This document shows, piece by piece, positions 40,495 through 47,988 of a DNA stretch of 64,000 bases. This DNA is from Corallococcus macrosporus DSM 14697 (GTDB lineage: Bacteria; Myxococcota; Myxococcia; Myxococcales; Myxococcaceae), in the NCBI RefSeq assembly GCF_002305895.1, contig NZ_CP022203.1, forward strand, positions 7,970,001 through 8,034,000, given 5' to 3'. Position numbers and translations under genes: made by a program. Every line of letters begins with the position of its first letter. Positions within the stretch are counted from its first letter, which is position 1. Below the pieces are notes generated by a model, which saw only the letters and a list, made by a program, of their open reading frames with translations, ran no database searches and had not been told where the DNA came from.

Positions 40495-43400
40495 TCAAGC
40501 CGTCACCCACAGACGGATGAGCTCCAGGAGCTTGTCGGTGTCCACCGGCTTGGGCAGGTAGTCGCTCGCGCCGGCCGCCATGCACTTCTCGCGGTCATCC
40601 TTCAGCGCCTTGGCCGTCACCGCGATGATGGGGAGGCTGGAGTACTTGAGGTCCTTGCGGATGGCACGCATGGTCTCATAGCCGTCCATCTCCGGCATCA
40701 TCACGTCCATGAGGACGATGTCGACGTCGCGGTGCTGCTCGAGCATTTCGATGGCCGCGCGCCCGTTCTCCGCGAACACCACCTGCATGCCGTGGTTCTC
40801 CAGCACGCTGGTGAGCGCGAAGATGTTGCGCATGTCGTCATCCACGACGAGGACCTTCTTGGAGGACAGCTCCGTGTCCTTGTCGCTGCGCTGCGCCAGG
40901 GCGGCGCGGGCGCGGGGCGGCAGGTTCTGGTCCAGCCGGTGGAGGAACAGCGCCGTGTCGCTGAGGAGCTGCTCCGGGCTCTTGGTGCCGCTCTTGAGGA
41001 TGACGCTGCCGGTGTAGCGGCGCAGCCGGGCCTCGTCCTTGGGCGTCAGCTCCTTGCCGGTGTAGATGACGATGGGCAGGTCGCGGAAGCGGTTCTGCGT
41101 CTTGACCTCCTCCACCAGCCGGATGCCGTCGGTGTCGGGCAGCATCAGGTCGATGACGACGCAGTCGAACTCGCCCGCCTCCAGGCTCTGGAGCACCTCC
41201 TCGCCGGTGGCCACGGCCGTCACCACGACGTCGCCGCCCTCGCTGAGCAGCTTCACCAGGCTGTCGCGCTGGACGTCGTCGTCCTCCACCAGCAGCAGCC
41301 GGCGCTCCTTGCGCTCCAGGAAGCTGGCCAACTGGTTGAACACCCGCTCCAGGCCCTCCTTGCTGACGGGCTTGGTGAGGTAGCCGAAGGCGCCCTGCGA
41401 GTTGCCCTGGTGCTTGTCCATGACGCTGATGACGTGCACCGGGATGTGGCGCGTGCGCGGGCTGCGCTTGAGCCGGTCCAGCACGCTCCAGCCGTCCACC
41501 ACGGGGAGCTGGATGTCCAGGGTGATGGCGTGCGGCTGGAACTCGTTGGCCATGGACAGGCCGGTGTCGCCGCGCGTGGCCACCAGGGCCTTGAAGCCCT
41601 TCTCCCGCGCCATCTGCACCATGATGCGGGCGAACTTCACGTCGTCCTCGATGAGGAGCAGGACGCGGTCTCCCTCGCGGATGTGGTCGCGGTCATCCTC
41701 CACGGCCACGGGCGTCAGCAGCGACTCGATGGGCGGCGGCAGCGCCGCGTCCAGCACGTGGCCGCTGTCCGCCGCCGGCGGCGCGGGAGGCGGCTCCGCC
41801 AGATGCGGCTCCGGCGCCGGAGGCGACGCCAGCCGGGGCGGCGGCTCGTACAAGGGCACGATGGACGGCAGGCCCTCCTCCTCCGGGCTGAGGTACTCCG
41901 GCGGCAGGTAGAGGGTGAAGGTGCTGCCGCGGCCAGGCTCGCTGGCCACCTGGATTTCGCCGCCCAGCAGCTTGGCGATTTCGCGGCTGATGGACAGGCC
42001 CAGGCCGGTGCCGCCGTACTTGCGCGCGGTGGAGCCATCCGCCTGCTGGAAGGCCTCGAAGATGAGGCGCTGCTTGTCCCGCGCGATGCCGATGCCCGTG
42101 TCCACCACCGAGAAGCCGAGCACGTACCGCGAGCGCCGCAGGACCTCGTGGTCGAAGTGCGTGCCCGGCTCGGCCAGCTTCACCTTGAGCTGCACGCTGC
42201 CCTCGTCGGTGAACTTGAAGGCGTTGGACAGCAGGTTCTTGAGCACCTGCTGGAGCCGCTGCGGGTCGGTGCGGATGTGGCGCGGCGCGCCGGGGCCCAC
42301 CTCCACGGCGAAGTCCAGGCCCTTCTGCTCCGCCACGGGCAGGAAGCTGCGCTCGATGAACTGGTTGAGCTCGGTGAGGACGATGTCCCTCGGCTCCACC
42401 TGCATCTTCCCGGCCTCCACCTTGGACAGGTCCAGGATTTCGTTGATGAGGCTGAGCAGGTCTCCGCCGGACGCGTAGATGGTGTTCGCGTACTCCACCT
42501 GCTTGGTGCTGAGGTTGCCGTCCTTGTTGTCCGACAGCAGCTTGGCCAGGATGAGCAGCGAGTTGAGCGGCGTGCGCAGCTCGTGGCTCATGTTGGCCAG
42601 GAACTCGCTCTTGTACTTGGAGATGACGGTGAGCTGCTCGGCCTTCTCCTCCAGGCTGACGCGGGCGCGCTCCACCTCGTTGTTCTTCTCCTCGACGCGG
42701 CGGTTCTGCTCCTCCAGCAGCGTGGCCTTCTCCTCCAGCTCGATGTTGCTGCGCTTGAGGGCCTCCTGCTGCTGGGTCAGCTCATTGGACTGGCTCTGGA
42801 GCTCCTGCGTCAGGTCCTGCGATTGGAGCAGGAGCTGCTCGGTGCGCATGTTGGCGATGATCATGTTCAGCACCACGCCGATGCTCTCCGTGAGCTGATC
42901 CAGGAAGATTTGATGGATGGCGCTGAAGGGGTGGAACGAGGCCAGCTCGATGACGGCCCGCACCTCGCCCTCGAAGAGGACGGGCAGGACGATGATGTTG
43001 AGCGGCGCGGCCTCGCCCAGGCCGGAGGAGATGGTGATGTAGTCCGGAGGCACCTGCGTGAGCAGGATGGTCTTCCGCTCCAGGGCGCACTGGCCCACCA
43101 CGCCCTCACCGAAGCGGAACCGGTTGGCGATGTGCTTGCGCTCCCGGTACGCGTAGGTGCTGGTGAGCTTGAGCAGCGGCGTACCCGCCTCGTTTCCGTC
43201 CACCAGGAAGAAGGCGCCGTGGTGGGCGGAGACCAGCGGCGTCAGCTCGCTCATGATGAGGCGGCTGACGGCGTCCAGGCTCTTCTGGCCCTGCATCATG
43301 CCGCTGAACTTCGCCAGGTTCGTCTTGAGCCAGTCCTGCTCCTGGTTCTTCTGCGTCGTCTCACGCAGGTTGACGATCATCTGGTTGATGTTGTCCTTCA

Positions 43401-46400: not shown

Positions 46401-47988
46401 GGAGCTGGTCCACCATGGTGTTGATGGTGTCCTTCAGCTCCAGCACCTCGCCGCGCACGTCGACGGTGATCTTCTTGGACAGGTCACCCTTGGCGACGGC
46501 CGTCGTCACCTCGCCGATGTTGCGCACCTGGGCCGTGAGGTTGCTGGCCATCAGGTTCACGTTGTCCGTGAGGTCCTTCCACGTACCGGCCGCGCCGGGC
46601 ACCTGGGCCTGGGCGCCCAGCTTGCCCTCCACACCCACCGTGCGCGCGACGCTGGTCACCTGCTGCGCGAAGACATTGAGGGTGTCCGTCATCGCGTTGA
46701 GCGTGGCGCCCAGCGCGGCAATCTCACCCTGCGACGGCACCATCAGCTTCTGCGTCAGGTCGCCGCCGGCGACGGCCGTCACCACCTTCACGATGCCGCG
46801 CACCTGCGTGGTGAGGTTGGAGGCCATGAAGTTCACGTTGTCCGTGAGGTCCTTCCAGGTGCCGGACACGCCGGGCACCGCGGCCTGGCCGCCCAGCTTC
46901 CCTTCGGTGCCGACTTCACGCGCCACGCGCGTCACTTCCGAGGCGAAGCTGTTGAGCTGGTCCACCATGGTGTTGATGGTGCTCTTGAGCTCGAAGACCT
47001 CGCCGCGGGCGTCCACGGTGATCTTCTTCGACAGGTCGCCCTTGGCCACGGCGGTGGACACCTCGGCGATGTTGCGCACCTGGGCCGTGAGGTTGTTGGC
47101 CATCAGGTTCACGTTGTCCGTGAGGTCCTTCCACACGCCGGACACGCCGCGCACCTCCGCCTGACCGCCCAGCTTGCCGTCGCTGCCCACCTCCTTGGCG
47201 ACGCGCGTCACCTCGGCGGCGAAGCTGTTGAGCTGGTCCAGCATCGCGTTGACGGTGGTGCCGATGCGGAGGAACTCGCCCTTGACGGGCTGGCCATCAA
47301 TCTCCAGCGCCATCTTCTGGGTGAGGTCACCCTGCGCCACGGCCACCAGCACGCGCGCCACCTCCGTGGTGGGCTGCACCAGGTCGCCGATGAGCGAGTT
47401 GATGGAGTGGGTGCTGTGGGCCCAGTCGCCGCGCACGTCGCCCAGCGTCACGCGCTCGCCCATGCGGCCCTCCCGGCCGACCACGCGCTCCACGCGGACC
47501 ACTTCCTGCGTCAGGGTGGCGTTGAGCGACACCACGGCGTTGAAGGCGTCGGCGATCTCCTCCAGCACGGGATCAGCGTCGTCGACGGGCAGGCGCACGG
47601 AGAAGTCCCCGCTCTGCACCGAGCGGAGCGCGGCGAGCAGGGGGTGCAGCGGGTGGCCGCCGCGCCCCCGGCCACGTGAGGCGGGCGCCGCGCCGCCGCG
47701 GCCGTTGCGGCGGGCCGGCCTGGGCGGCGCCACCTCGGCGTCCGCTGGCGCGGTGGAGCGGGTCCGTCCCCGGTCGCCGCGCAAGCGGTTGACCGAGGCG
47801 CGCTCGGTGGAGGCCACGGCGCGAGTGGGCTCCTCCGAGCGGGAAGCGCCGTTCCCCGAAGGCTTGCGCGCGGCGGCGCGCTTGCGGCCATTGGACTGGG
47901 ACTGGGGAACCTTTGTGTCGTCCACGCAAGAAACCTCTGATCGGGATGAACGCTGCTGACTGCGCTGAAGCGGCGCCCGGACTGGCAT
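40495..47988 (-). CDS. Giant poly-HAMP hybrid histidine kinase
   Basis: 2,497 residues, no membrane segment. Basic low-complexity N-terminus (1-115), one HAMP-like unit ([19 protein letters not shown]), then about fourteen 92-residue tandem repeats (about 206-1530). Each contains A-x-G-D-L-S/T-x-[27 protein letters not shown] and W-K-D-L-T-D-N-V-N, that is, two HAMP units. Then GAF (about 1573-1710), coiled coil, HisKA (His near 1803 in [12 protein letters not shown]), HATPase (about 1920-2045), and three receivers with phospho-Asp near 2158, 2280 and 2429. The layout is that of fungal group III (Nik1-type) kinases, but with more repeats. A GTG at 47925 with AGAGG upstream is an alternative start. 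Confidence 0.93.
43398..47373 (-). repeat. Tandem 276-bp repeats encoding HAMP pairs
   Basis: About fourteen head-to-tail copies of a 92-codon unit. Many blocks are near-identical in DNA (for example the recurring complement of WKDLTDNVN and TINTMVDQL). Boundaries are approximate. Such a tract can recombine and can be mis-assembled from short reads. Confidence 0.9.

Follow-up and report, generated by a model that had tools for sequence, protein, structure and literature searches.

The window, that is the whole stretch of 64,000 nucleotides analyzed, contains on its reverse strand an open reading frame at 40495-47988 with 2497 open codons, within which lies a probable askB ortholog (40495..47925) encoding a product of 2476 amino acids from a GTG start. 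An earlier sequence-only reading had begun the gene at the ATG at 47988, to which the open frame extends. The GTG at 47925 is probably the true askB start and the ATG a less likely one, because the N-terminus VDDTK is kept in 27/27 orthologs, the residues ahead of it are unconserved, and an AGAGG motif lies 8 nt 5' of the GTG. A frame of 2315 amino acids is also found on the forward strand opposite askB (40732-47679); it is probably no gene and represents a shadow ORF of a GC-rich repeat gene. Pfam searches with the ORF product identified 16 HAMP stretches (PF00672) together with GAF, HisKA, HATPase_c and three Response_reg domains. From the N-terminus, and all on the reverse strand, the protein comprises a basic low-complexity tail with the motif NGRKRA (47659..47925), two HAMP domains ahead of the regular array (47134..47658; two PF00672 stretches), an array of fourteen 92-residue units (43369..47133), a GAF domain (42868..43284; PF13185, E 8e-17), a HisKA domain (42409..42612; PF00512, E 9e-20) with the phospho-acceptor His 1802 (ATG numbering) in an MSHELRTP motif, and a HATPase_c domain (41899..42270; PF02518, E 1.5e-28) with N, G1 and G2 boxes. 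These are followed by three receivers (PF00072), assigned to 41314..41658 (Asp 2158), 40954..41313 (Asp 2280) and 40516..40854 (residues 2379-2491, Asp 2428). A motif check found the catalytic residues in place, including the phospho-acceptor His, the kinase's N and G boxes and the aspartate of each receiver. The Pfam matches bear out the three receivers and the GAF domain between HAMP rod and kinase that the sequence-only reading had described, and no membrane family is among them, in agreement with its claim that the protein has no membrane segment.

A second gene on the same strand (38390..40405) begins 89 bp past the askB stop and encodes a receiver-PAS-PAS-histidine kinase (Pfam), the putative ortholog of AskC. 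In M. xanthus, AskC (MXAN_6734) is encoded directly downstream of askB (PMC7643160), and an AskC homolog is located downstream and on the same strand in 50/50 orthologous askB loci examined. Just past askC, also on this strand, the interval 35513-38255 apparently holds one operon: the gene of an ECF-type sigma factor ends at 37815, the product of 37036-37818 matches DUF4384 weakly, and 35513-37039 encodes a protein with the caspase fold (Peptidase_C14).

Two poly-HAMP hybrid kinases, AskA (MXAN_0712) and AskB (MXAN_6735), have been reported from M. xanthus, where AskA-AskB-AskC was published in 2020 as an ambruticin/glycerol-sensing kinase complex (PMC7643160). The window genome has exactly two such poly-HAMP kinase genes, at ~0.85 Mb and ~8.01 Mb of its single 8.97-Mb contig. 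The one outside the window is assigned to AskA, as its product matches the solved chain 9TRK at 270/273 residues over the first HAMPs; an AskA-type protein in genome G023 matches the same chain at 273/273, and from its sequence and map position we infer 9TRK to be M. xanthus AskA. AskA (HAMP region PDB 9TRK/9TRJ) resembles AskB in its 92-residue units, GAF, kinase and three receivers, with ~52% identity across the kinase-receiver part, whereas its N-terminal tail is shorter. With two poly-HAMP genes in the genome, an AskC-type gene downstream and a paralog that matches 9TRK, the window would thus hold askB-askC. Based on copy number, architecture, synteny and map position, the window gene is very probably the ortholog of M. 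xanthus AskB. Its product is distinct from AskA and combines a poly-HAMP rod with a histidine kinase and several receivers, and it shares with M. xanthus AskB its standing as one of two poly-HAMP hybrid kinases per genome and the askC gene directly downstream; no differences were found beyond the sequence divergence expected between species. Among the 27 Myxococcus genomes that made up our AskB comparison sample, the C-terminal part is 87-97% identical. The poly-HAMP gene is not a new system, and the finding of such a kinase was already known. Its placement in a characterized pathway means that experiments on the 14-repeat protein can build on M. xanthus genetics and on the structure already solved for its sister protein. 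The interest that is left concerns the array, which is fixed and ordered, and the constraint on it. One genome (G034) contains two AskB-type genes (L156 and L161), each with 14 units in identical order, and the AskC homologs that follow them show 75% and 37% identity.

Fourteen W-[KR]-[DQ]-L-T-[DN]-N-V-N anchors were identified between residues 286 and 1482, and their thirteen spacings are each exactly 92 residues. Tandem Repeats Finder likewise reported a single 276-bp array of 14.0 copies (43384-47257, score 3527), so that the fourteen 92-residue repeats counted in the sequence-only reading stand at both the protein and the DNA level. The proposed comparison across strains gave 14 units in 27/27 Myxococcus genomes, and this agreement among assemblies rules out a collapsed or expanded AskB array. 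A length difference in the poly-HAMP tract between MXAN_6735 and LILAB_12790 has been described (PMC4603909); it is unmatched by the 27 genomes analyzed here and deserves a recheck. Elsewhere in the family, several genera have an AskB of 14 or 15 units, and other genera one of 9, 7 or 6. Among relatives outside the AskB clade the spacing was 92 in 348/353 intervals, which indicates that array length almost always changes in steps of one or more complete units. The units are also specific to position, as 9612/9828 best matches between species fell at the unit's own place. For units 6 (45478-45753) and 8 (44926-45201), the match to each other is in some genomes about equal to the match to their own orthologs, with 216/1404 best matches swapped, which suggests past exchange between the two.

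The sequence-only reading had taken the repeats as HAMP domains, and a profile search confirmed the family relation (PF00672, E 1e-145). Within a unit, the canonical half matched Pfam HAMP at E 6e-10 (single half), while the second half gave no Pfam match. Alignment of half against half with hhalign returned E 0.007 but a probability of 5.6, a weak match. An AlphaFold model of a two-unit stretch, in which two helix-linker steps per unit were predicted, reached a mean pLDDT of 52.6, a poor value that is expected for a single chain of a supposed dimer. From this low-confidence model only the secondary structure was used; its top fold matches, which included the Aer2 poly-HAMP structures 3LNR and 4I44 with Z at most 7.7, were not counted as proof. 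Based on the Pfam match of the canonical half, the low-confidence model and the weak profile match, each 92-residue unit probably consists of two HAMP domains. The total, including the HAMPs before the array, would then probably be ~31, of which 16 are canonical by profile and 15 divergent. A literature search for a count of ~30 HAMPs found none.

Two subtypes of unit had been proposed to alternate along the rod as NIA- and GIV-type. The subtypes proved distinct, with the G-type units forming a separate clade, whereas the alternation is absent; the order reads NGNNGNGNNNNGGA and is identical in 27/27 Myxococcus genomes. From subtype order and clade, the G-type units of the window gene are unit 2 (46582..46857), unit 5 (45754..46029), unit 7 (45202..45477) and units 12 and 13 (43546..44097), all on the reverse strand. 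Twenty G-type units from 12 proteins, drawn from loci of Myxococcota, Cyanobacteria, Acidobacteria, Steroidobacter and Gemmatimonadota, formed one clade with a support of 0.98, and the subtype label switched once on the unit tree compared with 18.9 times in shuffles. Most relatives outside the AskB clade have a run of N units, then a single G unit, then a terminal A unit. The G unit is thus usually single and penultimate, while AskB has five. As far as we have found, the spread of the G-type clade across several phyla and the five G units of AskB are new.

The pN/pS ratios were 0.01-0.12 for the AskB units, 0.17 for the GAF domain, 0.31 for HisKA-HATPase and 0.08-0.22 for the receivers. Judged from these ratios, purifying selection acts more strongly on the AskB rod than on the kinase domain, which is new as far as found. 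AskA follows the same trend, and strong constraint on the rod is therefore shared by both paralogs and not peculiar to AskB.

AskB of M. xanthus is reported to bind mrpC promoter DNA, and AskA gave no promoter shift in gel assays, yet bound in a pull-down (PMC7643160). The same work proposed partial helix-turn-helix domains in the HAMP units. We reject helix-turn-helix domains (SpoIIID, HTH_6) in these units: the matches are partial and below threshold, no stretch beats E 1, and a single unit scored 14.9 bits against the helix-turn-helix profile, for a cut-off of 27. The published matches look spurious, as weak scores summed over repeats. The basic N-terminal tail is a better candidate for DNA contact. 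It is 64-89 residues long with a net charge of +6 to +13 in 27/27 genomes and is variable in sequence (pN/pS 0.81). In FrzCD of M. xanthus, DNA is bound through a basic tail that precedes a di-HAMP. The binding by FrzCD is sequence-independent while that of AskB is reported as promoter-specific, which weakens a simple charge model for the AskB tail.

A likeness to fungal group III kinases, drawn in the sequence-only reading, holds for the HAMP-repeat plan and for the lack of any membrane family; it fails for the closer relationships, where the near relative is myxobacterial AskB and not Nik1, and for the GAF domain and three receivers. Nik1, Bos1 and TcsC have, like AskB, a cytoplasmic rod of ~90-residue HAMP repeats ahead of a hybrid kinase, with six repeats in Bos1 compared with 14 in AskB. 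In fungal group III kinases, the rod stands directly before the kinase with no GAF domain known between them, and there is one receiver. The Pfam layout of the window gene differs: a GAF domain separates rod from kinase, and the receivers number three. The name group III has nevertheless been applied to AskA and AskB (PMC7643160). Amb07 of Sorangium cellulosum So ce10 is, as AskB, a poly-HAMP hybrid kinase, and is encoded in the ambruticin gene cluster. Concatenated HAMPs are also found in the soluble receptors Aer2 of Pseudomonas aeruginosa and FrzCD of M. xanthus, which differ from AskB in being chemoreceptors and not kinases, with 5 and 2 HAMPs, respectively.

In M. xanthus, AskA, AskB and AskC bind one another as well as MrpC and FruA, and a double deletion of askA and askB makes no fruiting bodies while pseudospores are formed (PMC7643160). 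AskC and not AskB binds ambruticin, and ambruticin VS-3 and high glycerol are the only inputs for which the Ask system has been tested. The AskB product is most likely a soluble hybrid histidine kinase, presumably dimeric, in which ~31 HAMPs arranged end to end would build a long rod of parallel helices. An input at the rod, the tail or the GAF domain would change HAMP helix packing and thereby the kinase, and phosphate would move among His1802, the three receivers and the partner kinases AskA and AskC, in a direction that we can only propose. The targets of the Ask complex would then be MrpC, FruA and the mrpC promoter, through which it would select either fruiting-body development or chemically induced sporulation. 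We give this signaling mechanism, as worded, roughly even chances. Alternatively, AskB might be a cytoplasmic osmotic or mechanical sensor like Nik1, as the sequence-only reading had considered possible, with the HAMP rod itself sensing solute or crowding. The common plan of HAMP rod and kinase and the rod's place as the most conserved part of the protein agree with such a role, and we consider it unlikely, as we know of no fungal group III kinase with this GAF and receiver arrangement and ambruticin works through the Ask system at nanomolar concentration. The Ask system does respond to glycerol at 0.1-0.5 M, concentrations that increase osmolarity as well, but osmotic and chemical effects are not told apart in the available text (PMC7643160). 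No likelier is a rod that serves mainly as a scaffold, with unit-specific sites binding AskA, AskC, MrpC, FruA or DNA and little signal passing along it. The positional specificity and fixed order of the units would suit a scaffold, as would the fact that AskB binds DNA as well as four or more proteins (PMC7643160); on the other hand, AskA binds the same partners and has 6, 9 or 11 units depending on the species, and solved structures of concatenated HAMPs show two conformations with opposite signaling output (PMC3570549).

For the array, as distinct from the identity of the gene, we tentatively propose, as a rather doubtful reading, an ordered device and not a uniform rod. The G units would serve as separate sites of switching or binding, so that selection keeps both the order and the total of 14, and DNA binding would reside in the basic N-terminal tail, as in FrzCD, and not in the HAMP units. 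The number 14 may instead be merely inherited, the units being by now too divergent for frequent recombination and their number having no functional role, a possibility to which we give somewhat less than even chances. The units of AskB are less alike at the DNA level (identity 0.773) than those of AskA (0.834), and AskB arrays do vary in other genera (15, 9, 7 or 6 units), both as expected for an inherited number. Against it, AskA and AskB are similar in the longest identical stretches on which recombination could act (median 86 bp), and gap-free AskA arrays changed at least five times on the tree (two in complete genomes), compared with 0 changes in AskB. These AskA counts exclude drafts with N gaps (G013, G020 and G022) and an array at a contig end (G006), before which at least eight changes were counted. 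The contrast between a fixed AskB and a variable AskA is suggestive and not conclusive. As far as found, the fixed 14 units of AskB within the genus, set against 6, 9 or 11 units in AskA, where the order is (S)N...NGA with one G unit, are described here for the first time. Together with the fixed order and the old G subtype, this contrast within the same cells offers a natural test of why many HAMPs are chained and whether their number and order matter. In genome G014 (AskB locus L107), rated 100% complete, no AskA-type match was reported and the second match was a 638-aa frame; AskA may have been lost or missed there. The AskA-type array L172 of genome G054 reads NDDDNDNNDG, with a variant at the N positions that was unseen in the other arrays read.
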